Below are positions 27,887 through 42,796 of a stretch of DNA of 45,020 nucleotides, in pieces (position 1 is the stretch's first letter; every line of letters starts with the position of its first letter). The notes beneath the pieces were generated by a model. It had not been told where the DNA came from. It worked only from the letters and a program-made list of their open reading frames with translations, and made no database searches. Location of the stretch: NCBI RefSeq assembly GCF_025751435.1, contig NZ_JAOWKY010000007.1:1-45020 (forward strand). The letters run 5' to 3'. Both the position numbers and the translations under genes were made by a program. The stretch comes from Albidovulum marisflavi (lineage in GTDB: Bacteria > Pseudomonadota > Alphaproteobacteria > Rhodobacterales > Rhodobacteraceae).

Positions 27887-28081
27887 GCGGGATATGTAGC
27901 TGCCGCAGGGGGCTTGGTAAACCGACAATGAAGCGCATCGCCGCGAAAGCGATGACGAAATCGCGGACTTGCCGCACATGCGCCGACGTCGAGAATCGCG
28001 CCTTGCCGCAAAGGTCAGGACCGCCGGACACCTTGGCTTCCAGCCTCCGCTTTTGCCAGCTGGCATTAAGCAATGCCCGCC

Positions 28082-28294: not shown

Positions 28295-30664
28295 ATGACG
28301 GCACCGCAACTGGCCGCTGAACAGGCTACGAAGGAGGAGTTTGTCGACGAACTCAAGCCCGGCACCAAGTTGCTCCAGGGCCAGTACACGATATCGCGCT
28401 TCATCAACAGCGGCGGCTTCGGCATCACCTATCTTGCCAAGGACAGCCTTGAGCGGAACGTCGTGATCAAGGAATGCTTTCCCGGAAGTTTCTGCCGCCG
28501 CAGCGATACGATCGTGGGGGCGCGGTCGCGGGCCCACCAGGCCGAATTCAAGTCAATCGTGAAACTCTTCGTGCAGGAAGCCCGCAGCCTTGCCAAGCTT
28601 GCCCACCCCAACATCGTCGGCGTGCACCAGGTTTTCGAAGATAACGACACCGCCTACATGGCGATCGACTTCATCGACGGGCGCGACCTGCTGGACATCA
28701 TCGAGCACGCGCCGGGCGAAATCACGCCCGACCGCCTGGTCGCGATCACCTACAAGCTGCTGGAAGCGGTCGGTTTCGTCCACGACAACGGCATCCTTCA
28801 CCGCGACATCTCGCCGGACAACATCCTTATCAACAAGGATGGCGAGCCGATCCTGATCGACTTCGGCGCCGCCCGCGAAGAGGCGACCCGGGCCAGCCGC
28901 GCCCTTTCCGCGCTTCGCGTCGTCAAGGACGGATACTCGCCCCAGGAATTCTACATCGCAGGCAGCGAACAGGGGCCCTGGAGCGACCTCTACGCGCTCG
29001 CGGCAACGCTTTACCATGTGATCACCGGACACCCGGCAGCCAACAGCCAGGTTCGTCTGGCCGCGATCGCCGAGGGCGGTATCGACCCCTACGAAGCGCT
29101 TTCGGGCCACTATGAGGGATATCCGGACGGCTTCCTCGAAGCCATCGACAAGGCCATGCACGCGGTCCCGCGCAAGCGCATCCAGTGCGCGGCCGACTGG
29201 CTTGAAATGCTTGCGAACCCGCCCCAGCAGATCCTGGCGGCGGACGCAACCGCGGCTGTGTCGCGCCTGCTCAGCGAACAGATCCTTTCTGAGGAAGCGG
29301 CCGAAGAGGTGACCGAACCGGCGGCGACGCCGGAGGAAACCGCAAAGTCCGCGGAACCGATCTCCGCACCGGAGTCTCCGGCACAGCAGAGGGGCTCCGA
29401 ACCCGCCGAAGGCGAAGCCGCCGAGACAGAGCCAAAGCCCGCAGTGCAAGCGGCGGTAACCCCGCACCGCGTGTCGGCAGCACCCGCTTCGGTTCCGCTG
29501 CCCGAGCCGCGCGGAGGATCGGGCCGTGGATTGCTGCTTGGCCTCTCGGCGGTTGCCGTGCTGGCTGTTCTGGGCTTCGTCGTGCTGCAGATGGGCGATA
29601 CGGCGCCCGAGGGATCGGACAGCGCCGCGCAAGCGCTTGCCTCTTCCGCACAGGCGCAGCCGGTGCTGCCCAAGCCCGAAGCCAACACGTCCACGGCTGC
29701 CGCGTCGGCGACTGATGCTGCCGCAGCGGCGCCGGTCAGTTCTGCTTCGGCCGAAACCGCAACCGGCGCCGCACCCTCTGATGAAAGCGCAGGCTCGAAG
29801 TCCGGGCAAGGCGCCGATGCGGCTGAAGCATCGGCCGGCGAAAACGGGGTGGCGCCGGAATCTGTCGCCACAACCACATCGAGCGAGCCTGCCGTCAAAG
29901 TAGCGGCTGCCCCGGCCGCTCCGGCCGCCCCGGTCGCTCCGGTCGCTCCGGTCGCTCCGGTCGCTCCGGTCGAGAGCGCGACGACGAACGCCACAGCGCA
30001 AGAGGCAGCACCTGTAACAGCGGCACCTACGGAAACCGCCGCGGCAGAAGCTGCCCCGGCTGTTCCCGCCGCCACGCAGATCGCCTTTGCGGTATGGGAT
30101 GTCGTCGTGCCATTCACCACCCAGGTCCGCTCGATCGGCGGGGTGAACTACGCGACGATCCGTTCGATCGACGAAAGCACCGACCTCGCGATCGCAGGCG
30201 ACTGGATCAAGGTGGGCACCACGATCTTTTCCGTGAACGGCAATCCGGTGTCTTCGACACAGAACGTCGGCGCGCTTATTCTGCGGAACCTCACGGTCGA
30301 ACGCGACGGAATGGAACGCGCCTCGGTCCGCATCAAGCTGCCGGGCGAAGCGCAGTACAACCGGGTTCAGCTTGTGGTGCCGGTTCTGCGCCGCGTCGGA
30401 CTGGTCGACGGATTGCGGGCCGAAGCGCGCTACGGCGAGGACAGCTGGAACATCGCGATACGGGAAATCGGCGACGCGCGGACGTCGCTGCGCGAAGGCG
30501 ACGTGCTGCTTTCCGAGATGACGACGGGCATGGCCCTCGACCAGTCGAGCAGCCTTGAGGATGTGATGCGGAAGCTGGTCCAGCAGGGCAAAACGACCGC
30601 CGAGTTCGAGGTTCTCCGCGACAGGATCAAGACGACCGCCAGCTACAACCTGGTCACCGAATAA
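28295..30664 (+). CDS. Transmembrane Ser/Thr protein kinase with periplasmic PDZ-like domains
   Basis: The gene encodes 789 aa. The kinase domain (about 30-305) has the glycine loop SGGFGITYLA (39-48), the catalytic Lys59 (VVIKE), HRDISPDN (catalytic Asp171, metal-binding Asn176; Ser173 replaces the usual lysine), Asp189 of DFG and YSPQEF/WSDLYAL. An Ala/Pro/Glu linker leads to one TM span (about 413-434). A second Ala/Pro-rich stretch follows, containing 9-base tandem repeats. The distal domain (about 595-789) has two segments that resemble PDZ modules (GDWIKVGTTIFSVNGNPV; LREGDVLLSEM). Topology predicts a cytoplasmic kinase and periplasmic sensor. It is the first gene of a set with FHA and PP2C partners. 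The kinase assignment is firm; the PDZ call is inference. Confidence 0.95.
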   Translation: MTAPQLAAEQATKEEFVDELKPGTKLLQGQYTISRFINSGGFGITYLAKDSLERNVVIKECFPGSFCRRSDTIVGARSRAHQAEFKSIVKLFVQEARSLAKLAHPNIVGVHQVFEDNDTAYMAIDFIDGRDLLDIIEHAPGEITPDRLVAITYKLLEAVGFVHDNGILHRDISPDNILINKDGEPILIDFGAAREEATRASRALSALRVVKDGYSPQEFYIAGSEQGPWSDLYALAATLYHVITGHPAANSQVRLAAIAEGGIDPYEALSGHYEGYPDGFLEAIDKAMHAVPRKRIQCAADWLEMLANPPQQILAADATAAVSRLLSEQILSEEAAEEVTEPAATPEETAKSAEPISAPESPAQQRGSEPAEGEAAETEPKPAVQAAVTPHRVSAAPASVPLPEPRGGSGRGLLLGLSAVAVLAVLGFVVLQMGDTAPEGSDSAAQALASSAQAQPVLPKPEANTSTAAASATDAAAAAPVSSASAETATGAAPSDESAGSKSGQGADAAEASAGENGVAPESVATTTSSEPAVKVAAAPAAPAAPVAPVAPVAPVAPVESATTNATAQEAAPVTAAPTETAAAEAAPAVPAATQIAFAVWDVVVPFTTQVRSIGGVNYATIRSIDESTDLAIAGDWIKVGTTIFSVNGNPVSSTQNVGALILRNLTVERDGMERASVRIKLPGEAQYNRVQLVVPVLRRVGLVDGLRAEARYGEDSWNIAIREIGDARTSLREGDVLLSEMTTGMALDQSSSLEDVMRKLVQQGKTTAEFEVLRDRIKTTASYNLVTE
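29921..29971 (+). repeat. 9-base tandem repeat inside the kinase linker
   Basis: Four perfect copies of CCGGTCGCT (29930-29965) with degenerate copies on both sides encode a Pro-Val-Ala repeat in the periplasmic linker. Copy-number change would keep the frame, so linker length could vary between strains. Confidence 0.85.
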
Positions 30665-30762
30665 GGGCATACCCGCGCGGCAACGCGCCGAAACTGTTGC
30701 AGTACGAGTTTCCTAGCGCCAGTCGCGCAGCAAAACGTTTCTTGAAATGCGAGGTCACGATC

Positions 30763-31731
30763 ATGCGTATTAGACCGTTGGCAGGACTGAGCGAGAAGGG
30801 GTTCTCGTTCGATCTCGTTTCCCGCAGAAAAGCTGCGCGGGCCGATCAAGCCGAGATCAGCGCGTCGGAAGAAGAAGCTGCAACCGAAGAGCAGGTAGCA
30901 CCTGCAAATGAAACCATTCTCGAAGACCCCGATCTGATGGTCGAGCCGTTCGAGTCCGTGCTTCAGCAACTTCGCGGTTCGCTTGCGGCGAAGACTGACG
31001 AAGATCCTGCCGTCAAGGAAACGCCGGACCGGCCCCTGACCCTTGCGGGCCTTGAAATGGCCGCCGAACTGGATGCGGCGCATGATCCGGCCCCGGAACC
31101 CGAGGCCGACACCGGCGCGAAAGCCGCGCAGGATCAGGCACCTGTCCGCGAGCCGATCGCAGAAATCCTGCGTCTTCTGCCCGAGCAGGCGGTCAAGCCG
31201 GAGCAGGCAGCCAAGCCGGCGCCTGCGCCTTCACAGCCGGCAACCGAGGCCGCCCCCGAGACTTCGAGCGCGCCCCGTCCCAGGTCGCGCGTCAAGACCA
31301 CCTTCCTGGGCTTCGAACGCTCGGACGGGCGGATCGAGGACGTGTTTGCCAAGGAAGCTTCGACCAAGCAGATCGCGAACCGCAGCGAATTTCCCTTCGG
31401 CTGGGTCGTCATCACCAAGGGTCCGGGCCGCGGCACATCCATCGCGATCAGCGCGGGCGTGTCCCAGATCGGGCGCGGCGACGATCAGGCCATTCAGCTC
31501 GATTTCGGCGACACCTCGATTTCTCGCCAGAACCACGCCGCGATCGCCTTCGATGACGAGGATCGCAAGTTCTATCTGGGTCACGGCGGCAAGGCCAACA
31601 TTGTGCGCCTGAACGGCAAACCGGTGCTGAGCACCGAACCGCTTTCCGACGGCGATCTGATCCGCATCGGCGAAACGACCATGACGTTCGTTGCCTTCTG
31701 CGGCGAAGATTTCGTCTGGGAGAAAGAGTAA
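30763..31731 (+). CDS. FHA-domain phosphothreonine-binding protein
   Basis: The gene encodes 322 aa. The start is ATG 30763 (MRIRPLAGLSEKG) with GAGG eight bases upstream. Residues 1-175 are acidic and Pro/Ala-rich, probably disordered. The FHA domain occupies about 213-313, with IGRG (236-239), the SRQNH pair Ser254-Arg255/His258, LNGKPV (283-288) and a closing GDLIRIG. FHA domains bind phosphothreonine, so this is the likely reader of the neighbouring kinase. A KTTFLGF stretch (178-184) just before the FHA domain could be a phosphorylation site. There is no TM or signal. It lies 98 bases after the kinase gene and 16 bases before the phosphatase gene. Confidence 0.93.
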   Translation: MRIRPLAGLSEKGFSFDLVSRRKAARADQAEISASEEEAATEEQVAPANETILEDPDLMVEPFESVLQQLRGSLAAKTDEDPAVKETPDRPLTLAGLEMAAELDAAHDPAPEPEADTGAKAAQDQAPVREPIAEILRLLPEQAVKPEQAAKPAPAPSQPATEAAPETSSAPRPRSRVKTTFLGFERSDGRIEDVFAKEASTKQIANRSEFPFGWVVITKGPGRGTSIAISAGVSQIGRGDDQAIQLDFGDTSISRQNHAAIAFDDEDRKFYLGHGGKANIVRLNGKPVLSTEPLSDGDLIRIGETTMTFVAFCGEDFVWEKE

Positions 31732-31747
31732 GAAAGATTTCAACAAG

Positions 31748-32515
31748 ATGCATTATGACGTCGCAACAGCCATTAACAAAGGCAAACGCGAATACCAGGA
31801 GGACGCGGTCGCAACCGCGTTCCTCAAGGATCACCCCTTGGGGTTCGCGGTTCTCGCCGACGGGATGGGCGGACACGCTGCAGGCGATATCGCCAGCAAC
31901 ATCGTCGTGACCGAGGTTTCGCGCAGCTTGAAGGCGCGCCTCCAGCCCCACGCGCTCAAGGATGAGGACATACCCGTCATCCTTCGAGAGGTCGCAACAG
32001 CGGCGAACAATTCCATCGCGTCCTACGTCGCGTCAAATCGCGAAGTGTCCGGGATGGGCACGACGCTGATCGCACCGGTCCTGATGGAAAACCGGCTTCA
32101 CTGGGTCTCGGTCGGCGACTCCCCGCTCTACGTCTTCAGCGAAGGACGGTTGCGCCAGGTGAATGAGGACCATTCGATGGCCCCGCAGATCGACCTGATG
32201 GTCCGCACCGGAATGCTGGACGAGGAAACGGCGCGCAATCATCCGGACAGGAATTGCCTGACCTCCGTGCTGATGGGCGCACCCATCCCGCGCATGGACT
32301 GCGGCAAGGCGCCCGTCCCCTTGCGCCCTGGCGACATCATCATCGCTTCAAGCGATGGGCTGCAGTTCCTGTCGGATACCGAAATCCAGCAGGTCGTCGA
32401 ACGCTACAAGGAAGAAAGTTGCGCCGAGTTGGCCAAGGCGCTGATGGCACAGGTCCAGTCCCTGGAGGACCCGGATCAAGACAACATATCGCTTGCCGTC
32501 ATAAAGGTCAGTTAA
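31748..32515 (+). CDS. PP2C-family Ser/Thr phosphatase
   Basis: The gene encodes 255 aa. The start is ATG 31748 (MHYDVATAINKGKREYQED); an extension overlapping the FHA gene is unlikely. The metal-binding and catalytic motifs are intact: REYQED (Asp19), LADGMGGHA (Asp38), GMGTTL, VGDSPLYVF, SSDGLQFLS and DQDNISLAV (Asp245). The enzyme is a soluble, manganese/magnesium-dependent phosphatase that should reverse the upstream kinase. It starts 16 bases after the FHA gene, so the three genes form a writer-reader-eraser set. The same triad occurs in type VI secretion clusters (PpkA-Fha-PppA), but no secretion genes are present here. Confidence 0.95.
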   Translation: MHYDVATAINKGKREYQEDAVATAFLKDHPLGFAVLADGMGGHAAGDIASNIVVTEVSRSLKARLQPHALKDEDIPVILREVATAANNSIASYVASNREVSGMGTTLIAPVLMENRLHWVSVGDSPLYVFSEGRLRQVNEDHSMAPQIDLMVRTGMLDEETARNHPDRNCLTSVLMGAPIPRMDCGKAPVPLRPGDIIIASSDGLQFLSDTEIQQVVERYKEESCAELAKALMAQVQSLEDPDQDNISLAVIKVS

Positions 32516-32524
32516 CGAGTTCGC

Positions 32525-32545
32525 GGCCGTCCTATCCCGACGGCC
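32525..32545 (+). terminator. Weak hairpin between the phosphatase gene and the first LysM gene
   Basis: GGCCGTC (32525-32531) and GACGGCC (32539-32545) can pair across seven bases, just after the phosphatase stop. There is no T-run, so termination would be partial at most; it may set different levels for the kinase set and the LysM set. Confidence 0.35.
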
Positions 32546-32630
32546 AATCCCCAAATCACATGCGATCCAAACGGCGCTGACGGCGCCGAACAGATCGTCG
32601 CAATCCATGCTCGAGAAAGGGCGCGACACT

Positions 32631-33725
32631 ATGCGAACCGATATCCAGAAGCTTCTCGCAGTGAGCTTCTTGGCGTTGACGGCCGGCACCTATGCGGCCT
32701 CTGCCCAGGAAGCCTGTTCGACCTACAGGATCAAGCGCGGCGACACGCTTACGAACATCGCCGTCCGGGCCTATGGCACCAGCAACTTCTCAAGGATATT
32801 TCAGGCCAACCGCGAACTGATCGGTGGCAATCCCAACCTGATCGAAGTCGGCCAGAAGATCGAGATCCCCTGCCTTGAAACCGCCGCGGCACCGGTCGAG
32901 GTGCCCGTCGTGGAGGAAGCCAAGGAAGAGCCGGCCGTAGCGGCAGAGGCCGTGGTCGAACCTCTAGCGCAGATCGCCTTCGTCACCGGAAACGACTATC
33001 CGCCCTTCGCGGGAGAGGAGCTGCCCGAAGGCGGCATCTTTACCCAGCTTGTCCGGACGGCAATGCTGCGTGGCGACAAGCAGCAGAAATACTCCATCGA
33101 TTTCGTCAACGATTGGAGCGCGCATCTCGACAGCCTGCTGCCGCGGAATGCTTTCGACGCGACCTTCCCCTGGAGCCGGCCGGATTGCGAAAACCTCAAG
33201 GCGCTGTCGTCGACGGATGCCTATCGTTGCACGGACTTCGACTTTTCCGAGTCCTTCTATGAAATCGTGGACGGCTTCTTCGCGATCAAGGGAAGCGGCC
33301 TGGAAAAGGCCCAGACCTACGACGAATACCTTGGCAAGCGGATCTGCAGGCCGGAAAGCTATTCGCTTTCGGGCATGACCGCGGTCGGCCTGGTGGAGCC
33401 CAAGATCACCCTGGTGCGCCCATCGTCGGTTGCCGAGTGCTTCGAGGGGCTCGCGACCGGGACCGTGGATATCGTGCATCTGGACCTGCAGGTCGCCTCG
33501 GATGCGCTCGCCGATCTGGGGCTCAAGAACGACATCGTCGAGGACCCGCATCTTGCGCAGGTGAAGACGCTTCGGGTCGTCGTGCACAAGTCCAACCCGC
33601 ACAGCGCCGACATCCTGGCGGTCATCAACCGGGGTCTGACCGAAATGCGCGAAAGCGGGGAATGGTTTGACATCGTTTCGGCCGGGCTGATGGCCCAGAC
33701 AGAAGAAGAACTGAAGAAGAACTGA
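32631..33725 (+). CDS. Exported LysM - solute-binding-protein fusion, paralog 1
   Basis: The gene encodes 364 aa. The start is ATG 32631 (MRTDIQKLLAVSFL). A Sec signal ends near ASA before QEAC. A LysM domain (about 29-80; YRIKRGDTLTNIAVRAYG, ending IPC) is flanked by two cysteines. After an acidic Ala/Val/Pro linker comes an SBP_bac_3-like domain with the paralog signature DWSAHLDSLLP, RICR and a late SGEWFDIVS. The mature protein has exactly six cysteines, at positions shared with the two following genes. LysM should bind peptidoglycan and the second domain a small ligand. No permease or ATPase is adjacent, so a sensing role is more likely than transport. This paralog is the most diverged in the linker. 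Confidence 0.9.
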   Translation: MRTDIQKLLAVSFLALTAGTYAASAQEACSTYRIKRGDTLTNIAVRAYGTSNFSRIFQANRELIGGNPNLIEVGQKIEIPCLETAAAPVEVPVVEEAKEEPAVAAEAVVEPLAQIAFVTGNDYPPFAGEELPEGGIFTQLVRTAMLRGDKQQKYSIDFVNDWSAHLDSLLPRNAFDATFPWSRPDCENLKALSSTDAYRCTDFDFSESFYEIVDGFFAIKGSGLEKAQTYDEYLGKRICRPESYSLSGMTAVGLVEPKITLVRPSSVAECFEGLATGTVDIVHLDLQVASDALADLGLKNDIVEDPHLAQVKTLRVVVHKSNPHSADILAVINRGLTEMRESGEWFDIVSAGLMAQTEEELKKN

Positions 33726-33832
33726 TCAGGCCCCGGCTCGTGCGCGGGCCGGGTCAATCGAAGAAGAGAGACCTTACAACCCAGTTACGGGCCGGCCCGG
33801 AAGGGCAGCCAAGACAAAAAGGAGATCAGTGG

Positions 33833-34933
33833 ATGATCTTGCGCCTCATCAGCAAAACGCTCCCAGTATCGGCGCTGTGCGCCGGTGCTTTCCTGGGGAC
33901 CGCATCTGCGCAGGAGGCCTGCTCGACATATGTCGTGCAGGAGGGCGACACGATCGGGAATATCGCGATCAAGGCCTACGGCGTTCTGGACTACCAGATC
34001 GTCTTCAACGCGAACCGCGACAAGATCGGCAATGACATTTCGGGCCTCAAGCCCGGAACCGAGCTGGTTCTGCCCTGCGCCGACGGCCGCCTCACGGCGG
34101 ATGCGGCGACCCCGGACGTGGTCAAGTCGACCCAGGCCTCGGCCAGCCGTTCGACAACTGCGATCGACGACTACAAGCCCAAGATCAAGTTCGTCACGGG
34201 CGGAGACTGGTACCCGTTCACCGACGAGGGTCTGAGCGGCGGCGGCTTCCTGATCCGTCTGGTGGAAACCGCGATGCACCGCGGCGGCAACGATCGCAAC
34301 TACCTGGTCGGCTGGGTCGATGACTGGGACTCGCACATGTCGGTCCTGCTGCCGTACAAGGCTTACGACCTGAGCGTTGCGTGGTACGCCCCGGACTGCG
34401 GCAAGACCGACTCGATGTCCGAGATGACGCGCGACTTCTGCGACAACTTCCTGTTTTCGAAGTCGCTCTACGATGCGGTGTTCGGGTTCTTCACCCGCGC
34501 AGACAGCCCCTATGCCGATGCCAGAGTGCTTGCCGACTACAAGGGCGCGCGCATCTGCCGGCCCGAGGGCTATTCGATGCACGACCTCGATGAGGCCGGG
34601 CTGATCGAGCCTGCCGTTACGATCACGATCCCTTCGACCCTGGCCGATTGCGCCGAAGGCGTCATGCAGGGCCTTTACGACGTGATGTCGGTGGAATCGC
34701 AGGCGATGGTCTCGGTCCGCAAGGAACTGGGTCTCGGGGACGAGTTCGTGGAAAACGCCTTCGTCACCTCGATCCAGGCCATTTCGGCAATGGCCTCGAA
34801 GTCGAACCCCCGCGCGATCGAGTTTCTGACCGAGCTCAATGCTGGCCTCGACGAGATGCGCGACAGCGGCGAATGGTACGACATCGTCGCCAGCTCGCTC
34901 AAGGAAGCGAACGAGAAACTTGCTGAAAATTAA
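33833..34933 (+). CDS. Exported LysM - solute-binding-protein fusion, paralog 2
   Basis: The gene encodes 366 aa. The start is ATG 33833 (MILRLISKTLPVSAL) with GGAG eight bases upstream; the longer ORF start is unsupported. The signal peptide ends ASA before QEAC. The LysM domain contains YVVQEGDTIGNIAIKAYG and ends LPC. The binding-protein domain starts near IKFVTGGDWYPFTDEGLSGG and has DWDSHMSVLLP, WYAPDC, RICRPEGYS and SGEWYDIVA. The six mature cysteines match those of paralogs 1 and 3; an extra cysteine lies in the removed signal. It is 107 bases after paralog 1 and 90 bases before paralog 3. Closest in architecture to paralog 3, suggesting serial duplication. The ligand is unknown. Confidence 0.9.
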   Translation: MILRLISKTLPVSALCAGAFLGTASAQEACSTYVVQEGDTIGNIAIKAYGVLDYQIVFNANRDKIGNDISGLKPGTELVLPCADGRLTADAATPDVVKSTQASASRSTTAIDDYKPKIKFVTGGDWYPFTDEGLSGGGFLIRLVETAMHRGGNDRNYLVGWVDDWDSHMSVLLPYKAYDLSVAWYAPDCGKTDSMSEMTRDFCDNFLFSKSLYDAVFGFFTRADSPYADARVLADYKGARICRPEGYSMHDLDEAGLIEPAVTITIPSTLADCAEGVMQGLYDVMSVESQAMVSVRKELGLGDEFVENAFVTSIQAISAMASKSNPRAIEFLTELNAGLDEMRDSGEWYDIVASSLKEANEKLAEN

Positions 34934-35023
34934 TGAGTTACGGCGAGCCGGATGAGCCGGCCCGTCATCCACCCCAACACGCACGGCCGCTGGCCGATCC
35001 AAAACGAAAGATGGAGAATCATG

Positions 35024-36127
35024 ATGGAACAGCGCATCCAGTTCTTCCGAGTGGCTGCTGCCGGGATTGCGGCGCTGCTGGTCGGAACCTCTGCCTCTGC
35101 CCAGGAAGCTTGCACGTCCTACACCGTGAAGGCGGGCGACAGCCTTGGGACGATCGCACAGAGCGCCTACGGCACTGGTGAATACCAGAACATCTTCAAC
35201 GCGAACCGCAACGTGATCGGCGACGATCCGGCCAACCTCGTCGAAGGCACCGTTCTTAACCTTCCTTGCGAAGACGGCTCGATCGCAGGTGCCGCTTCGG
35301 CTGACGCGATCATCGCGGAACAGACCAAGATCGCCGCGTCCACACCCAAGTCGAACGCCTACGAGCCGCCGGTCAAATTCCTGGCGGGCGGTAACTACGC
35401 CCCCTTCAGCGATGAAGGCCTGTCGGGCGGCGGCTTCCTGGTGCGGCTTGCCGAAACGGCGATGCAACGCGGCGGCAACACCCGCGGTTACCAGACTGCC
35501 TTCGTCAACGATTGGGGCGCGCACCTTGAAACGCTGCTGCCCACCGGCGCATTCGATATCGGTCTGGGATGGTTCATGCCGAACTGCGAAAAGCGTGACA
35601 TCCTGAGCGAGTCAATGCGGTATCGCTGCGATCAGTTCGACGCTACGCTTCCGGTCTACGAACCCGTCGTCGGCTACTACACGATGAAGGACAGCCCTCT
35701 GGCTGGCGCGACAAGCTTCGATGCTTACAAAGGCAAGCGCATCTGCCGCATGGATGGCTACTTCACCTTCGACCTTGAGGAAGAGGGCCTGACTCCGCCG
35801 GCTATCGAACTCATGCAACCGACCCTGCCGAGCGATTGCATGGAAGCCCTGGTGACAGGGGCGGTTGATGTTGCCACCATGGAGATCCAGTCCGCCGCAG
35901 ACGCCATTGCGACACTTGGAATCAGCGCGGATGTGGTCGAAAACGCCAACCTCGCCAAAGTCGTGTCGATGTCCTTCATCGCACACAAGTCGAACCCGTT
36001 CGGCAAGCAGTACATCACAATGATGAACCGCGGCCTGAGCGAGATGCGCAACAGCGGCGAATGGTATGCGATCATCTCAAGCACGCTGAAAGAGCACAAC
36101 GACAACCTGATGAAACTGGCGAACTGA
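35024..36127 (+). CDS. Exported LysM - solute-binding-protein fusion, paralog 3
   Basis: The gene encodes about 367 aa. Two adjacent ATGs (35021, 35024) are possible; the second is better spaced from GGAG and gives MEQRIQFFRVAAAGIAALL. The signal ends ASA before QEAC. LysM (YTVKAGDSLGTIAQSAYG, ending LPC) and the binding-protein domain (KFLAGGNYAPFSDEGLSGG; DWGAHLETLLP; WFMPNC; RICRMDGY; SGEWYAIIS) follow the common pattern with six cysteines. It is the last gene of the plus-strand cluster and ends before a strong terminator. Ligand-pocket residues differ between the three paralogs where the shared motifs do not, which suggests different ligands; this is inference. Confidence 0.9.
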   Translation: MEQRIQFFRVAAAGIAALLVGTSASAQEACTSYTVKAGDSLGTIAQSAYGTGEYQNIFNANRNVIGDDPANLVEGTVLNLPCEDGSIAGAASADAIIAEQTKIAASTPKSNAYEPPVKFLAGGNYAPFSDEGLSGGGFLVRLAETAMQRGGNTRGYQTAFVNDWGAHLETLLPTGAFDIGLGWFMPNCEKRDILSESMRYRCDQFDATLPVYEPVVGYYTMKDSPLAGATSFDAYKGKRICRMDGYFTFDLEEEGLTPPAIELMQPTLPSDCMEALVTGAVDVATMEIQSAADAIATLGISADVVENANLAKVVSMSFIAHKSNPFGKQYITMMNRGLSEMRNSGEWYAIISSTLKEHNDNLMKLAN

Positions 36128-36170
36128 TCGGCCATGGTGCCGGCACTAGCCGGCACCCGAACAAACCGAC

Positions 36171-36205
36171 AGGGCCCGCGATTCGATCGCGGGCCTTGTT
36201 CATTT
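36171..36205. terminator. Terminator between the two convergent arms
   Basis: A 10-bp perfect stem (36173-36182 with 36186-36195, loop TCG) followed by TTGTTCATTT ends the LysM cluster on the plus strand. Another hairpin with 8-base arms (36136-36143, 36150-36157) precedes it. The main stem is symmetrical and may also stop the minus-strand GTPase operon. Confidence 0.85.
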
Positions 36206-36227
36206 CAGAGCTTGGAAGTGATTGCCG

Positions 36228-37565
36228 TCAGCCAGTCGTGACCGGATGGGCAAGGCCGTCCGTAAGCTGGGCCAGAAGCAGCGCGGCCTTTTCCGCATTG
36301 GCGTCGTCGCCTTCGTACTGCATCAGGATAAGAAGATCCTGGGCGCGCTGGAATTCGGGTTCCACCCACGCCTCTGATGCAGGCAGGGCCGGCATCGCGG
36401 AAATATCGCCAAGGAACAGAGAAACCGCATCCTGTGCGACAGACAGGAAATCTTCGTCCTGTTCGATGCCGCCGGTGTGAAGAGTTTCGACAACCTCTGC
36501 CATGCGCCGCTTCCAGGCCATGAGAACCGGACTGACGGGCTTTGCCTGTGTGCCGCCCTGCGGCGCTACGGGCTTTGGCTGCGGTTGCGACGGGGCCGGC
36601 CGCGAGGTGGCAGGCGCTTCGGTCGCATCGGCGCGGCGGGTTTTCGCAGTGGCGCTTTCCGGCTCGGCCGCCGGTCCAGGATCAAGGGGCAGCTGAGCCA
36701 GAAGCGGCTCCAGGTGCTGCGCCATGCCGCGGCGAACCTTTTCCAGTTCCGATTTCCGGCACTCGACCGCCATTTCCATCATGGCGACCATGAAGGGTTC
36801 TACCCCGCTCGCCGCCCAGACCTTTTCCGGTTGCGCGATCTCGCCCTGAAGGGCGCGCCAGGCATCGGTGCTGCCCAAGGGCAAGACCTTGCGAAACGCC
36901 GCGCCGACCGCAGACTCCAACCGCTCAAGTGTGGGCGTGAGCGTGCCGGCAGACAGGTGATCCGCATGAGTCATCGCAAGGATCGCCTTGCGCTGCACCG
37001 CCTTCGGCACAAGTCCCCACAAATGGCGCTCTTCCGCGGTCCATGGGTCGTCCGCGTTCGTGCACCAGACGATCATGTCGGCCAGTCGGTTCAGCACGAA
37101 AAGGGCGTTGGCCTGTGCGCCCGAATCCTCGAGGTCGGACAGGTCCATCAGCCAGACGTCGCGAAGGACCTCGCAGTCGATGCCGACGGATACGATATCG
37201 GGCGCCTGCGCAACAGCGGCGGCTATGTCCAGCCCGTCAAAGACCTTGTCTTCCCGATCCCACCAGCTTGCCGTGGTCCGGTACGCGTCCGAATGCCTGA
37301 GGATCACGGCCGGCATGGTCGAGCGGCGCGGCTGTGTCGGAATCACGGATTCACCGACCAGCAGATTGATCAGGCTCGACTTGCCAGAACGGGAAAGCCC
37401 CGCTACCGCGATCCGAACTGGCGCTTCCAGGCGTGCAATATAGGCCTCGACCTGGCTCCTTGCGTTTTCCAGCGCCGGATCGCCCTGAGCCCGCGCTCCG
37501 TCCATGACCGCGGCGAAGCGCCTGAGAATTTCGATTTCGGTCTCTGCCCTGGGAAATGCCACCAT
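36228..37565 (-). CDS. P-loop GTPase-like protein with degenerate switch II (GTPase 3 of the operon)
   Basis: The gene encodes 445 aa. A helical N terminus (1-47) is followed by a G domain: P-loop GLSRSGKSS (56-64), a threonine-containing switch I region (TQPRRSTMP), DLSD at 141-144 where DxxG is expected, and THAD at 199-202 where NKxD is usual. Loss of the switch II glycine suggests weak or altered GTP hydrolysis. A Pro/Ala-rich linker (about 297-345) leads to a small helical C-terminal domain. The P-loop resembles the YcjX/dynamin-like group, but I do not assign a family. It starts 3 bases after the 248-aa gene and is the last gene of the operon. Confidence 0.85.
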   Translation of the reverse strand: MVAFPRAETEIEILRRFAAVMDGARAQGDPALENARSQVEAYIARLEAPVRIAVAGLSRSGKSSLINLLVGESVIPTQPRRSTMPAVILRHSDAYRTTASWWDREDKVFDGLDIAAAVAQAPDIVSVGIDCEVLRDVWLMDLSDLEDSGAQANALFVLNRLADMIVWCTNADDPWTAEERHLWGLVPKAVQRKAILAMTHADHLSAGTLTPTLERLESAVGAAFRKVLPLGSTDAWRALQGEIAQPEKVWAASGVEPFMVAMMEMAVECRKSELEKVRRGMAQHLEPLLAQLPLDPGPAAEPESATAKTRRADATEAPATSRPAPSQPQPKPVAPQGGTQAKPVSPVLMAWKRRMAEVVETLHTGGIEQDEDFLSVAQDAVSLFLGDISAMPALPASEAWVEPEFQRAQDLLILMQYEGDDANAEKAALLLAQLTDGLAHPVTTG

Positions 37566-37568
37566 GAC

Positions 37569-38315
37569 TCAGCCCTTGTCGCGTTGGGCGGTATCAGCCC
37601 AGGCTTGCGCCAGTTGCGGAACCTGCCCGGGCCCAGCGGCGGCGATCCAGAGTTCACTGTCCTTCTCGGCAAGGATCAGACGGCCTGCGCCTTCGTCTGC
37701 CGCCCCAACCGCGACAAATCCAAAGCCGCCGCCCACGTGCCCAAGCGCGGTCCGCAAAGCGGCGATGTCGCCCATCAGCGCGGTGTCGGCGCTTGCAGGA
37801 AGCAGGGACGCATCGCCCTTGATGTCCGTCACGCCGCCCGAGACATCCAGCCGACCCGAGGCGCTGCAAGCGACCGAAAGCCGCATGGCAAAGCTGGCGT
37901 CCGATGGCACCTCGGCAGCCTGCATCGCCTTTGCGCAAGCCGCGCGCAAATCGGCAACCGAGAAGCCGACGCCAGATCCCGCGTCATCCTCATCCGCGAT
38001 CTCGACGTGGTAGAGATGCTGGCCTTCACAGTGCGCGTGGGCCACGAGCGCGCCGGAAACCTTGGCAAGATCGGATGACGGCATGGCCTCGACCTCGAAC
38101 AACCGCCCGCTGCGCGCACGAAGGACCATCCGGCGCCCACCGCCGGACACGAGGACCAGACGGCGCGGCAAGATCGTGCCCGTGACAACGCGCAAGATCG
38201 CTTCGAGCCGCGCCGAGGCGGATTTGCCGGGCAAATGGCGCGCGGAAGTGGCGGCAGGCTCGGACAATGTCTCGAGCCCCGCCATGATGGACATGATTTC
38301 GCGGCTGACGGTCAT
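37569..38315 (-). CDS. Conserved-looking protein of unknown function (248 aa)
   Basis: The start chosen is ATG 38315 (MTVSREIMSIMAGLETL); the longer ORF would run through the previous gene. It has no signal, TM segment or catalytic motif that I recognise. It contains two similar-looking alpha/beta stretches: residues about 50-140 (RRLVLVSGGGRRMVLRARSG) and about 190-245 (GGFGFVAVGAADEGAGRL). These could be two Roadblock/longin-like folds, but that is only an impression from strand patterns. It lies between the Roadblock-like 129-aa gene and GTPase 3, 3 bases before the latter, so the products probably work as partners. Confidence 0.75.
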   Translation of the reverse strand: MTVSREIMSIMAGLETLSEPAATSARHLPGKSASARLEAILRVVTGTILPRRLVLVSGGGRRMVLRARSGRLFEVEAMPSSDLAKVSGALVAHAHCEGQHLYHVEIADEDDAGSGVGFSVADLRAACAKAMQAAEVPSDASFAMRLSVACSASGRLDVSGGVTDIKGDASLLPASADTALMGDIAALRTALGHVGGGFGFVAVGAADEGAGRLILAEKDSELWIAAAGPGQVPQLAQAWADTAQRDKG

Positions 38316-38365
38316 GGCGCCTGCTTGCTCTTTCCAACCCACTCCAGCTTCAAATTCCTGCGGAT

Positions 38366-38755
38366 TCACAAGACATTTGCAATGTCTTTCCCAAGCTGGC
38401 GGCCCGCATTGCGCATCTGTGCGACATCTGCGCCGCTCTTCCCGATCAGGCAGAGCGCATGTTCGCCATGCTTTTCCATGCGCAGGAAAAGGCAGGTGAA
38501 ATCCTTGTTGCGGATCAGCGCCTCGCCGGGCATCGCCTCCGCCGAGGCGGCGACCGCCGCGCGCCAAGCGCCAGCCATGCCCTGCCCGTCCAAGAGGCGC
38601 GCCGCGAGCGTTGCGATCGCATCGAGTATCTCTTGCGAGAACGCGCGCGATGAACGGCGCGTCAGAACCAGTTCCTCAGGCATGTCGACGTAGCAGACCG
38701 CCAGACAATCTGGCAGCGCCTGCAGCGTGCCATCCATCAACCCGTTCAGCGCCAT
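38366..38755 (-). CDS. Small Roadblock/LC7-like protein
   Basis: The gene encodes 129 aa starting MALNGLMDGTLQALPDCL. The pattern of a helix, a strand pair around VCYVDMPEELVLT, a long helix (SQEILDAIATLAARLLDG), two strands (FTCLFLRMEKHGEHALCLIG) and a final helix (AQMRNAGRQLGKDI) resembles the Roadblock/LC7 fold of MglB-type GTPase regulators. The length also fits. The match is by pattern only. Lying between two GTPase genes, it would be a plausible GTPase-activating or scaffold partner, by analogy with MglA-MglB. It lies 87 bases downstream of GTPase 2 and 50 bases upstream of the 248-aa gene. Confidence 0.7.
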   Translation of the reverse strand: MALNGLMDGTLQALPDCLAVCYVDMPEELVLTRRSSRAFSQEILDAIATLAARLLDGQGMAGAWRAAVAASAEAMPGEALIRNKDFTCLFLRMEKHGEHALCLIGKSGADVAQMRNAGRQLGKDIANVL

Positions 38756-38842
38756 GATCCGTCTCCACCGCCGCCAAGAGCAACCGCTTTCACGGAATTA
38801 CAGGGACGGTTCACGATTTTCCAGTGCCGCGAGAGACCTTCG

Positions 38843-40345
38843 TCAGCCGAGCTTGCGCAGGCCGGTGTCTTCGGCACGCTCAGCATCGGGTTCGATTCCC
38901 TCGGCACGATCGACAGCCAACAGGAACTTCTCGAACAGGGCAAGCACGTCCTTGACCGAGCGTGCCTCTGGCTCGGAGGCAAGAACCTCTCTCCAGAGAA
39001 GCGTCACAGAGGTGGAAACCGGTTCGCCGCCTTCCCCGTCGCCCAAGAAATCGGCGTCGCCTTCCGGAACGGACACCGCCTCCATCTGCGCGGTATCGGC
39101 GTCAGTCAACGGCTCATCAACCGGTTCGGCGGGCAGTTCCTGGACGTCGGCCGATGCCTCCAGTTCCTGATCACCGGCCTCCGCGTCGAGGTCTTGACCG
39201 ATTTCGGTCTCGACCGCCTGCTCGACCATTGGCGCCGAAGCGTCCTCGGCTTCGTCCGGCGCTTCGTCGGCGACTGCGGGAACAAGCTCTGCCGTGTCCG
39301 CGACGTCGTCTTCAAGGTGCTCGTTCAGCGAGAACACGCCGCCCGCGTCTGCTTCCCCGGGAACCACACGCTGCACGAAATTCAGGTGCAGCACTTCGGA
39401 TGTATCGACTTCGGGGGTCGCGCTTTCTGCGCCCTCGATCACCTGCGATCTCATCGATGCCGCGTTGTCGCGGCTCAGCCGTTCCCGCGTGGCGCTTTCT
39501 TCCCGCTCAAGCCGGACGGGGCGGACAGCCCGCCCCGGCCGAACGCGGGACGGCTGAACGGTTTCACTGGAAATCACGGCATAGCGCGAAAGCATCCCCA
39601 TCCGGGTTTCGATGATGTCATGCGCAATGTCCTGAAGCGCGGTCAGCAGCTCCTCGCCCCCACTCTCTACCCAAAGGTCTTGCGCGTCATCCTCGCTTGC
39701 GGCGCGGATCGCATCCATCGCCGAAAACATGATGATGCTGCGGAACATTTCGCCCGCCTCGCGCTTGAGCCGCCGTGCCACGCGGGCTTTGTCGGCCGGC
39801 AAGAGCTTGTCGGAGCGTGTCGCAAGCAGGACCGAATTCTCGCGAAGCCGCTCGGGCAGGGATTCCCAGGCGCTGCGCTCGGATTCCCGCCAGGCCTGTG
39901 TCGAATGCGTGCACCAAAGCACCGCGTTGACGTAGCCGACCGCCATTTCCCATACGGTCTTCGGAATGTTCGGGTCCGATATGCCGGGCGTGTCAATCAA
40001 GTCGATTGTCTCAAGGACGCGGCCCTTGCAGAAAAGCCGGATGTAGCGCACCCCATCCACGGGAACGGTGTGAAGATCCTCGAAGCCAAGATCGTGGCGA
40101 TGGCCCTCAGTATCGACGTACCAGGCCTGGGGCTCGCCATAGCTCATCCACACCGGGGGCAGCTGGGTCGCGGTGACGCGTGTCGGCAACACGTCCTCGC
40201 CAACCAGGAGGTTGGTCAGGGTGGTCTTGCCTGCGCTGAATTCACCCATAAGCGCGATGCAGGGTTTGCGGCTGGCCCAGCTTTCGAGCCTGGTCATTCC
40301 CTCTGGCGAAACCGCCCGCCGATTCGGTGTTTGAGTATCAGTCAT
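38843..40345 (-). CDS. Dynamin-like GTPase with long acidic tail (GTPase 2)
   Basis: The gene encodes 500 aa. The G domain is intact: P-loop GEFSAGKTT (34-42), switch I TRVTATQLPP with Thr58/Thr60, switch II DTPG (118-121) and TRSD (176-179) in the base-recognition position. The GEFSAGKTT form is characteristic of bacterial dynamin-related proteins. Residues about 300-450 are very acidic and low in complexity, unlikely to form a paddle domain. A short helical end (VTLLWREVLASEPEA) finishes it. It lacks the long helical stalk of true dynamins. It begins 14 bases after the 676-aa dynamin gene, so the two are probably coupled and could heterodimerise, as paired bacterial dynamins do. Confidence 0.88.
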   Translation of the reverse strand: MTDTQTPNRRAVSPEGMTRLESWASRKPCIALMGEFSAGKTTLTNLLVGEDVLPTRVTATQLPPVWMSYGEPQAWYVDTEGHRHDLGFEDLHTVPVDGVRYIRLFCKGRVLETIDLIDTPGISDPNIPKTVWEMAVGYVNAVLWCTHSTQAWRESERSAWESLPERLRENSVLLATRSDKLLPADKARVARRLKREAGEMFRSIIMFSAMDAIRAASEDDAQDLWVESGGEELLTALQDIAHDIIETRMGMLSRYAVISSETVQPSRVRPGRAVRPVRLEREESATRERLSRDNAASMRSQVIEGAESATPEVDTSEVLHLNFVQRVVPGEADAGGVFSLNEHLEDDVADTAELVPAVADEAPDEAEDASAPMVEQAVETEIGQDLDAEAGDQELEASADVQELPAEPVDEPLTDADTAQMEAVSVPEGDADFLGDGEGGEPVSTSVTLLWREVLASEPEARSVKDVLALFEKFLLAVDRAEGIEPDAERAEDTGLRKLG

Positions 40346-40359
40346 TCTGCCCGTCCCCT

Positions 40360-42390
40360 TCAGGCTGCCATATCATCAAGCCCGCGGAGGATTTCTCCGA
40401 AGGCGGCGCCCGTGTCAGTGCCCGCTTGCAAGACGCCGAGGGCTTTGCGCGCATCCTCGGCGGTGTCCGCGTCCGGCTGCGTGATGCGGCGGATGGTTTC
40501 CTGATGTTCCTTCAGGAATTCCCGCAGGATCGCACGGGCGTTTTCCAGAACCGAGGCGACCTGGTTCTCTTCAAGGTCCCTGGTGATCGAGTTCGCCTCT
40601 GCCCTGATCAGATGCGCGTAGTCCTTTGCAAAGGCCTCGTATCCGCGCCGCTTCTGCCACCAGCGGCGCCACCAGGTGCTTTGCAGGTCAAGCGCGATCG
40701 TCTTGCCAAGACCGACCGGCGCAGGAACGCGCGGCGCATGCGGCGCCTCGATCCGGAATTCCCCTTCCGCCTCTGAAAGCACGGCAGAATATATCGCCTC
40801 GACGTGGCGGGCAGCATCTTCATAGAGCTTGGAGAGCTTTGCCGACATTGCCCGGGCAAAGCTCAGATAGGCCGCCCGCTGCAGAACGCGCAGGCCGGTC
40901 GGGTCGTACTGCCAGGTTCCACTCTCGCCATGACGCTCAAGATGCTCAAGCAGGGAATCCGTCGCACGCTTGACGAAGCCGGACTCGGCGGATTGCATCC
41001 TCTGCATCAGGTCGTCGCGCAGCTGCTGACAGACCTCGGCGACATCCGACTCGTACTTGGCGGCAAGCTGCTGCATCACCGAGCTGGCAGAATGACCCGC
41101 GAAATCCACCGTCACCGCGGCGCCGCCCGAACGGCGCGCCATCAGCGTTGCCCGCGCCTCGTTGGTAAGGTTGCGCGCGTTGCGGCGCACCCGCTCCAGC
41201 AGACGCTTGCCGGCGCCTTCGCTCACCCGCTCGGCGACCGCATTCAACAGGCCCGGCAGGCCGGATAGGTTCCAGGCGGTTTCCCATTCGTCCCGGCCAG
41301 CCAGTTCGGGATGCATGGCGCCGAACTGCTCCAGCGCCTTGCGGCTGTCAGCAGAGAGGCCGTCGTAGGACCCCATCAGCGCCGCCTCACCCCACTTCGC
41401 GCTGCCAAAGACGATCCCGACGTCGGACGCAATGTTGAACTTCTTCAGCGTCGCCAGGATGCCCGAGCGGATCTCGTCGATCTGGCCCGCCGGATCTTGA
41501 AGTTCATCCACGCGGTTCACGAACAGGATGATCTGGCGATTCTCCAGGTTCGAGATGATCCGCATCAGCGCCATGTCGACGGTCGACAGCGCCTGATGCG
41601 CCGAAAGGACCACGACGCAAAGCTCGGACCCGCGCAGGCTGCGCAGCGTGATCTGTTCGCGCATCATGAAGGTGTCGTTGACGCCCGGCGTATCGCAAAG
41701 GGTCAGGGATACGTCGTATTCAGGGATGTCCAGGAACAACTCGGCCGACTTGGTGATGTCCGCAAAGCGTCCGGTCTGGGGATTGCCCTCACCCGGGGTG
41801 ACATCATCGCCAAGACAGACATAGCGTTCGACCAGCTCCGGATCGACGTAGCCGTAAGAGTGATTCTGACCCAGCAGAAGTTCGAAATGCCTGCCAAGAC
41901 GGGCCTTGGTCGCGTCGCGCATGGCCTGAACCTGCCGCTGGATATCGGCAAGCTCCTCTTGCGCCCCGGATCTTTCCGCCAGCTCGCCCAGCCGTCCACC
42001 GCCGACCACGAGGTTGTCCCATTCGTCACGGCTGAAGAACGTGAAGCGCGCCTTGGTGTTCGTCGGACCTTCGACATCGGCCGGCGCCTTGGTGTTGATC
42101 GCCACGGTCGTCACGACCGACGTCCAGGGATTCACATCGGACGGCAGCAGCCCCGGCGTCGCGGCAAGGATGTTGGTCAGCGCCGACTTGCCGGCCTTGA
42201 CCTGACCGACGAACGTGATCTTGGCCGAAAACTCCTCGAGCCGCGCCTTCAGCCCGGCTGCGCGCGCCGCGGTCCTGTCGTCCGCGACCGATGCAAGACG
42301 ATCCAGCGTTTCCGACAGTTCCGAGAAAGACGAGGCCAGCCCCGCAAAGGCGGCATTTCCCGAACTCAGCAGCTCTCTATTACGCACCAT
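40360..42390 (-). CDS. Dynamin-family GTPase (GTPase 1)
   Basis: The gene encodes 676 aa, the size of bacterial dynamin-like proteins. A helical N terminus precedes the G domain: P-loop GQVKAGKSA (62-70), switch I PWTSVVTT, switch II DTPG (233-236) and NRVD (292-295). Between P-loop and switch II there is a large insertion of about 100 residues. The C-terminal half is long helical and probably forms a stalk. Near 571-583 an aromatic-basic cluster STWWRRWWQKRRG (residues 571-583) could insert into a membrane. No TM is present. It follows a 123-aa gene by 34 bases. Membrane fission or fusion is the usual family role; the specific role here is unknown. Confidence 0.92.
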   Translation of the reverse strand: MVRNRELLSSGNAAFAGLASSFSELSETLDRLASVADDRTAARAAGLKARLEEFSAKITFVGQVKAGKSALTNILAATPGLLPSDVNPWTSVVTTVAINTKAPADVEGPTNTKARFTFFSRDEWDNLVVGGGRLGELAERSGAQEELADIQRQVQAMRDATKARLGRHFELLLGQNHSYGYVDPELVERYVCLGDDVTPGEGNPQTGRFADITKSAELFLDIPEYDVSLTLCDTPGVNDTFMMREQITLRSLRGSELCVVVLSAHQALSTVDMALMRIISNLENRQIILFVNRVDELQDPAGQIDEIRSGILATLKKFNIASDVGIVFGSAKWGEAALMGSYDGLSADSRKALEQFGAMHPELAGRDEWETAWNLSGLPGLLNAVAERVSEGAGKRLLERVRRNARNLTNEARATLMARRSGGAAVTVDFAGHSASSVMQQLAAKYESDVAEVCQQLRDDLMQRMQSAESGFVKRATDSLLEHLERHGESGTWQYDPTGLRVLQRAAYLSFARAMSAKLSKLYEDAARHVEAIYSAVLSEAEGEFRIEAPHAPRVPAPVGLGKTIALDLQSTWWRRWWQKRRGYEAFAKDYAHLIRAEANSITRDLEENQVASVLENARAILREFLKEHQETIRRITQPDADTAEDARKALGVLQAGTDTGAAFGEILRGLDDMAA

Positions 42391-42424
42391 TCACCATTCC
42401 TTTCACAACTGGCTGCACGCACCG

Positions 42425-42796
42425 TCAGGCGGCGACAGACGCAGCTCCCAAACTGTCCAGATGGCTCAGCACCTCGAGCCCGGTCGCCACCAGCCCGATC
42501 CTTTCGGCCACGCACAGCCTTTCGGCGGGCGCATCCAGAAGCACGCTGAGAAGCTTGTAGGATTGCCCGTTCCGAAGCTCGGCCAGCACCTCGCAGTCGT
42601 CGAAACGCCGCCCGGCCGAAAGGGCCGTGTTCAGCGCCGGGTTTCCAAGCCGCCGGGTACGATCGTCATATCCGACCAGGCGTATGCCGATGCCCACACC
42701 GGGCGCGGTCTGACCAAGGGCAGCCAGCGCGGCGCCAAGGCTGCTTACCGCTGCTGCCGAGCGTGCCCCTGATGCCAATGTCGACCCTGATGCCAT
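42425..42796 (-). CDS. Small protein of unknown function heading the GTPase operon
   Basis: The gene encodes about 123 aa from ATG 42796 (MASGSTLASGARSAAAV); the ribosome-binding site is weak and the exact start is uncertain. The sequence has a low-complexity Ala/Gly/Ser start and then a compact domain with IGIRLVGYDDRTRRLG, FDDCEVLAELRNGQSYKLLS and ERLCVAERIGLVATGL. I do not recognise it. It is in the same orientation as, and 34 bases before, the dynamin gene, so it is probably part of the operon. The 254 bases upstream to the SDR gene must hold the operon promoter, but I could not pick one with confidence. Confidence 0.65.
   Translation of the reverse strand: MASGSTLASGARSAAAVSSLGAALAALGQTAPGVGIGIRLVGYDDRTRRLGNPALNTALSAGRRFDDCEVLAELRNGQSYKLLSVLLDAPAERLCVAERIGLVATGLEVLSHLDSLGAASVAA

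Follow-up and report, generated by a model that had tools for sequence, protein, structure and literature searches.

Do a phospho-signalling gene set and a GTPase gene set that converge on one contig of Albidovulum marisflavi (NZ_JAOWKY010000007.1; the window, which is the entire 45,020-base contig) form a single system, and if so, what might that system do for the cell? The initial annotation of this DNA had proposed that they do. Its description of the plus strand, a kinase-FHA-PP2C set followed by three LysM/binding-protein fusions, agrees with the open reading frames and Pfam matches obtained here (the kinase arm), and the minus strand indeed carries the GTPase arm, in the order orf181, GTPa, GTPb, orf129, orf250 and GTPc. 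The three GTPases among these six genes stood as described, each matching Pfam Dynamin_N, but the small proteins listed with them as orphans did not all remain so, since the 129-residue one is predicted to have a Roadblock fold. We consider it somewhat probable that the locus encodes a phosphorylation-controlled membrane-remodelling switch. The fuller version, a receptor-to-dynamin machine in which wall-anchored sensors would act through a kinase/FHA/PP2C switch on dynamins gated via Roadblock regulators (Ragulator/MglB-type partners), is offered more tentatively, as a possibility that we would not yet call probable.

The coupling of the two arms across genomes carries most of this argument. 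A survey of 296 Rhodobacteraceae genomes from 295 genera found GTPa in 80 and the FHA protein in 68: 65 genomes have both, 15 have GTPa without FHA, 3 have FHA without GTPa and 213 have neither, where calling both arms present depends on an FHA match at E<=1e-20 and the genera are not independent of one another, which makes a Fisher test on these counts indicative at best. The two genes co-occur in 65 of the 83 genomes that have at least one of them, and in 59 of these 65 they start less than 15 kb apart on one contig. We also mapped genes in six frames, with our own profiles, on 106 stretches (20 relatives, 80 genome_contigs loci that are the top-ranked of the matches listed and hence biased to close relatives, five plasmid stretches, and the window), of which 101 are distinct contigs or places. 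Loci L067, L069 and L080, which share contigs with L025, L028 and L026, were omitted from the motif, kinase and arrangement counts; L068 and L132, which share contigs with L027 and L033, were omitted from the arrangement counts, and both of these pairs are still entered twice in the motif counts. Both arms were seen in 79 of the 101 distinct loci, the other 22 having no kinase-arm gene in view. For the genome_contigs loci alone, 64 of 80 have kinase-arm genes beside the GTPases, and several of the remaining 16 are short contigs or contig ends. In 39 loci (31 of them Ruegeria) both arms run the same way with the GTPases leading, in 30 they do so with the kinase arm leading, in six, including the window, they converge, and in four they diverge. 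The convergent locus of the initial annotation is thus correct for the window and only one of four layouts, three of which occur within the window's own genus. Because four layouts are found among these 79 loci, three of them in one genus, the neighbourhood of the two arms survives reordering, and in many lineages the arms form single head-to-tail runs. GTPa was also found on 18 plasmid records (Leisingera, Ruegeria and Rhodobacter), with the cluster on two plasmids in one Leisingera strain, and on annotated plasmids the kinase, FHA, PP2C, GTPase and small genes run head to tail. Of 386 genomes drawn from across the class, two had GTPa, both Rhodobacteraceae (the share of the draw outside the family is not shown). 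A phage-borne element was considered as well and rejected, as a scan of viral_contigs returned no relative.

Each of the GTPases scores above the Dynamin_N cut-off of 27 bits: GTPa, the large one (676 residues; 40360..42390, minus strand), with 39.1 bits (E 1e-9), the smaller GTPb (500 residues; 38843..40345, minus strand) with 40 (E 5.4e-10) and GTPc (445 residues; 36228..37565, minus strand) with 31.1 (E 2.8e-7). The GTPa profile matches the bacterial dynamin-like protein 2j68 (6.1e-11), and also 5owv; its P-loop (G1) and DTPG (G3) motifs are present in 141 of 141 family members and G4 in 136 of 141. By pattern, G1 was found in 96 and G3 in 83 of 99 GTPb members. GTPc is more degenerate: the P-loop is present in 77 of 80 members, including the window's, and the G3 motif D.PG in 39 of 80. 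Since G3 is missing from the window copy, and by pattern from 41 of the 80 members, GTPc may be a pseudo-GTPase, and the loss of its P-loop in L032, L039 and L040 suggests a structural role. A conserved Trp-rich stretch at about residues 572-586 of GTPa (consensus WWxRWWQxRRGY) could be a membrane-touching segment. The number of dynamin-like genes rises to four in L149 and further Ruegeria loci, where GTPc is preceded by a second large dynamin, GTPa2; four also lie side by side on a plasmid of Rhodobacter sp. CZR27 (L151), where no kinase arm was seen.

Two small genes between GTPb and GTPc point to how these GTPases might be regulated. For orf129 (129 residues; 38366..38755, minus strand), the predicted structure is a full-length alpha-beta-beta-alpha-beta-beta-beta-alpha fold that matches known Roadblock/LC7 members, with MglB among the best structural matches, and orf250 (about 248 residues; 37569..38315, minus strand) may have a Roadblock-like fold in its C-terminal half (138-248). 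The six-frame map lacks orf129 in the window, where the reading frame exists, which we attribute to the overlap filter. Searches of Pfam, NCBIfam, PADLOC and PHROGs gave nothing useful for either protein, the two NCBIfam matches of orf129 being at chance level. Against PDB sequences, the orf129 profile reached LAMTOR4 weakly (E 0.64), behind a peroxisome targeting receptor (E 0.35), and the orf250 profile matched a nonribosomal peptide/polyketide synthase chain (E 0.01 over 55 positions), which we regard as chance. While orf129 is kept in further loci without a kinase arm (e.g., L111, L112 and L187), some other such loci have a distinct protein of about 118 residues, RB2, and in kinase-less L180 and L186 neither orf129 nor RB2 was seen. 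RB2 adjoins the dynamins in L118, L120, L121, L126 and L175–L179, and it makes up the C-terminal part of the small dynamin in L042, L043, L185 and L181 (the last at only 40.5 bits). These fusions suggest that the small protein may act on the dynamin itself. RB2 is probably a Roadblock protein too, judging from profile comparison: hhalign aligned 98 columns of it with the orf129 family (E 6e-4, probability 28%), the orf129 relative in L084 is matched by both models (131.9 and 18.9 bits), and one of four stand-alone copies matched Pfam Robl_LC7 (PF03259) at E 0.034, below the cut-off. No PF03259 match was found in the two RB2 copies of L043 or in the fused L185 and L043 proteins, and the RB2 profile had no match among PDB sequences. 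Locus L043 (5125-7743) holds three nearby RB2-type domains, one solo on the opposite strand, one N-terminally extended and one fused to the small dynamin.

The kinase, FHA and PP2C DGMGGH motifs of the kinase arm are close to universal. The Ser/Thr kinase (789 residues; 28295..30664, plus strand; Pfam Pkinase 5.3e-30) has an Ala/Pro-rich linker, a single hydrophobic segment with a hydropathy peak of 2.85 at residue 412, read as its one transmembrane segment, and a C-terminal region with a weak PDZ-like Pfam match (E 0.053, below cut-off) that would be periplasmic. HRD and DFG motifs are present in 69 of 70 kinase family members, the single miss being truncated at its locus end. The FHA adaptor (30763..31731, plus strand; Pfam FHA 5.5e-9) carries, by alignment, an R-x-K-T-x-x-LGF motif upstream of the FHA domain, and R-x-K-T (K or Q in third place) is found in 68 of 69 members; a search pattern written for the FHA core found only 34 of 69 and was, as the alignment suggests, too strict. 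GarA and OdhI use a phospho-Thr switch, which the near-invariant Thr just N-terminal of the FHA domain here resembles, and this Thr is our best guess for the target of the kinase. The PP2C-type Ser/Thr phosphatase (31748..32515, plus strand; Pfam PP2C_2 2.3e-14) matches the Stp1-like model of NCBIfam at 3.5e-47, yet under that model's curated cut-off, and the DGMGGH motif is present in 39 of 40 family members.

The three LysM/solute-binding fusions that follow on the plus strand (32631..33725, 33833..34933 and 35024..36127) are recognizable from alignment and from LysM matches of E 1.2e-6, 0.0021 and 1.6e-4, respectively; the second is below the Pfam cut-off (18.4 vs. 20.9 bits), and SBP_bac_3 is below its cut-off in all three (E 0.02-0.05; 0.023 in the first, which by eye has a signal peptide). 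Among 41 kinases with sufficient sequence, the membrane label of ten of them being assigned from a separate examination, 17 have adjoining LysM genes and all 17 have a membrane segment, nine have the segment and no LysM gene, and 15 short ones have neither in the fetched locus; L168 was scored as lacking LysM although the same strand carries a LysM gene at a distance of about 3 kb. The membrane kinases without a LysM gene in L133, L136, L138 and L140 speak against strict pairing. On the kinase tree the membrane segment requires one change and LysM presence two, and hence the history looks like an ordered one, the membrane kinase first and LysM afterwards, rather than repeated co-evolution. Close LysM orthologues (E<=1e-90) occur in 20 of the 296 genomes, 18 of them GTPase-positive, and weaker matches, often solitary pairs, in 34, five of them GTPase-positive. 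Genomes that carry the GTPases also have additional membrane kinases paired with LysM genes elsewhere (L162–L165, and L167 together with PP2C). By eye, a solitary LysM/solute-binding pair sits between ruvAB-like and ybgC-tol-pal-like genes in L158 (8700-15800), and similar pairs were seen in further genera without the GTPases. The sensors are therefore outside the system core: the initial annotation had made wall-bound sensors part of the system, which fits the window lineage and not the 15 short-kinase loci, and because these 15 lack both the membrane segment and a LysM gene, a wall-bound sensor is unlikely as the general input.

From the observed gene content, genomic coupling, predicted folds and fusions, we infer protein contacts, a direction of signalling and an action at the membrane, as follows. 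The core would be the dynamin-like pair GTPa and GTPb, bound and regulated by the Roadblock-fold orf129, perhaps also by orf250, in a manner likened to that of MglB on MglA, with the often degenerate GTPc as a likely co-assembly subunit. The controller would consist of the Ser/Thr kinase, the FHA adaptor and the PP2C phosphatase. The kinase may phosphorylate a partner, a strong candidate being the Thr of the FHA protein's R-x-K-T motif, or else a GTPase, and we infer that it acts on the GTPases. The FHA protein would then bind phospho-Thr and, at the inner membrane, bring in the dynamins or let them go, with PP2C resetting the switch. In the window lineage, where the kinase is predicted to span the membrane, peptidoglycan-held LysM/solute-binding proteins probably signal to its outer domain. 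What the cell would gain is a guess on our part: it may be envelope repair or protection when its membrane is attacked.

Several results weigh against this model. The link between the arms is not obligatory, since no FHA match reaches E<=1e-20 in 15 of the 80 genomes that are GTPase-positive, and genome G208 carries kinase-FHA-PP2C and no GTPase; the FHA matches without GTPase in the other two of the three such genomes (of 68), G031 and G272, are weaker, that in G208 being strong. Further, the arms lie apart in G024 and G239, so that the two arms do not invariably come and go as a pair, a point that the initial annotation had suggested checking, even though its claim that the arms belong to one unit is supported by a large GTPase in 65 of the 68 FHA-positive genomes, neighbouring genes in 59 of the 65, and the four layouts. 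By pattern search, the G4 motif is found in only 66 of 99 GTPb members and the DN motif of PP2C in only 28 of 40. The Roadblock assignment has its own difficulties: orf129 has no Pfam Roadblock (PF03259) match at a limit of E 0.1, nor do three relatives at a limit of E 10, and so we call it Roadblock-fold on the structural prediction and not a PF03259 member; its profile does not match that of orf250; and the RB2-Roadblock link falls short of the usual thresholds. Finally, the correlation of the membrane segment with LysM, strong at first sight, was dropped as independent evidence because of the one and two changes needed on the kinase tree; the independent-pairs test offered two pairs only.

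Alternatively, the cluster might hold two independent modules that are merely co-located, one a kinase system of the envelope, the other a set of dynamins that maintain membranes. Genomes with one arm alone (15/80 and 3/68) and the separated arms of G024 and G239 would be expected if this were so, but the adjacency persists through inversion and reordering in four arrangements, the genes are neighbours in 59 of the 65 genomes with both, single head-to-tail runs occur in many lineages, and GTPc accompanies the kinase arm in Leisingera and G024. Hence, we regard mere co-location as quite unlikely. We give far less weight still, to the point of near dismissal, to the idea that kinase-FHA-PP2C controls type VI secretion as PpkA/Fha/PppA do, with the dynamins as bystanders. 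The window genome does encode VipB, but on another contig, and the FHA protein scores below the cut-off of the TagH model (14.8 vs. 120.25 bits); above all, six GTPase-bearing genomes (G002, G003, G006, G014, G016 and G018) have no VipB match, which makes this explanation unlikely. Two VipB-family genes about 14 kb apart were seen at G000:C3:490389-505473, one of them far more diverged and inside a 1567-residue frame.

Somewhat more credible, albeit still unlikely, is a conditional defence against phage or membrane attack, in which the kinase arm would sense infection or envelope damage and the dynamins would reseal or sacrifice the membrane. Bacterial DynA has been linked to phage resistance, and the patchy presence (80/296 genomes), the plasmid carriage (18 records) and the two plasmid copies in one strain fit such a role. 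On the other hand, the GTPases have no confident PADLOC model, with only weak, partial LeoA/LeoBC matches (best LeoBC, 2.3e-6, to part of GTPa), the kinase matches look generic, no relative was found in viral_contigs, and the five annotated plasmid stretches have mostly metabolic, transport and signalling neighbours. A Fic-family gene does occur in one of these stretches, and in one the gene standing where GTPc would be is annotated as 'zeta toxin family'. It is also conceivable, yet improbable in our judgement, that the dynamins release vesicles or remodel nutrient uptake under the control of the solute-binding domain's ligand; the LysM/solute-binding fusions of the window lineage and the lack of an ABC permease among the scanned proteins of the window locus would favour this, but the sensors are missing from many short-kinase loci. 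A membrane-remodelling switch under phosphorylation control remains the reading that we prefer.

Around these genes, a ParC-like topoisomerase gene (25544–28066, minus strand) adjoins the kinase arm, and the GTPase arm starts with orf181 (likely 123 residues; about 42425..42796, minus strand), which has no match in a Pfam scan and has homologues in near relatives only (L025, L026, L028 and L029); judged by GTPa, the closest named relatives are Defluviimonas. The initial annotation had assigned one terminator region to both arms. A consensus terminator scan found nothing between them, but the 141-base stretch 36110-36250 folds far better than 200 shuffles (z -5.35) with two strong hairpins, and a shared terminator region is therefore plausible in the intergenic segment (36128..36227). 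By eye, a dual-specificity-phosphatase-like gene lies beside or near dynamin genes without a kinase arm in L037 (HCQAGRGRTG motif), L182 and L184, hinting at another phospho-enzyme partner. Likewise by eye, a 2Fe-2S ferredoxin-like oxidoreductase gene adjoins or lies near the dynamin genes in L182, L184 and L186, and an ABC-type ATPase gene lies beside them in L182 and L184.

How does the cluster compare with known systems? As in the MglA-MglB polarity switch of Myxococcus and Thermus, a Roadblock-fold protein of about 130 residues is encoded beside a GTPase, but the partner GTPases here are dynamin-like (three Dynamin_N proteins) rather than Ras-like, a Ser/Thr kinase arm is added, and orf129, unlike MglB, has no Pfam Roadblock match. 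The Streptomyces conservon (Cvn) consists of a histidine kinase, a Roadblock protein, a DUF742 protein and a Ras-like GTPase; it likewise places a membrane kinase, a Roadblock protein and a GTPase in a single cluster, whereas the Pfam content of our locus is Ser/Thr kinase, FHA, PP2C and dynamin-like GTPases. The tandem large and small dynamin-like GTPases recall BDLP, Campylobacter DLP1/DLP2, LeoABC and DynA, although no confident full-length PADLOC match ties them to LeoABC or other known defence systems; to our knowledge, neither a Roadblock partner, sometimes fused here, nor Ser/Thr kinase control is known for paired bacterial dynamins. In the PpkA/PppA/Fha pathway of type VI secretion, kinase, PP2C and FHA protein are also encoded together, but no type VI secretion genes were seen in the cluster and its outputs would be dynamins. 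A search of the open-access literature, subscription journals being mostly outside its scope, found no described system of this composition and no dynamin-Roadblock pair, in line with the initial annotation, which knew of none either. The prophage-borne KKP (kinase-kinase-phosphatase) module likewise uses Ser/Thr kinase, FHA domain and PP2C as a switch, but it has a PP2C followed by two kinases with fused FHA/CSD, unlike the single kinase, separate FHA and different gene order here, and the word dynamin is absent from the main text of the report on it (PMC11341870). Similarly, the main text on MoxR-vWA and double-GTPase conflict systems (PMC7159879) describes GTPase-centred clusters with paired paralogous GTPases, as seen here, of another GTPase family, and contains neither 'roadblock' nor 'LysM'.

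In conclusion, what is new is the combination, as the parts belong to known families. The cluster supplies bacterial dynamins with a genomically coupled phospho-switch and a predicted Roadblock-fold partner. Few regulators of bacterial dynamins are known, Roadblock proteins are partners of Ras-like GTPases (MglA, Rag), and we know of no earlier association of dynamins with Ragulator- or MglB-type partners. The fact that a probable relative of orf129 is sometimes fused to a dynamin makes dynamin activation in bacteria directly testable, and a dynamin partner, if true, would broaden the roles of the Roadblock fold and help to show how the control of GTPases at membranes evolved.

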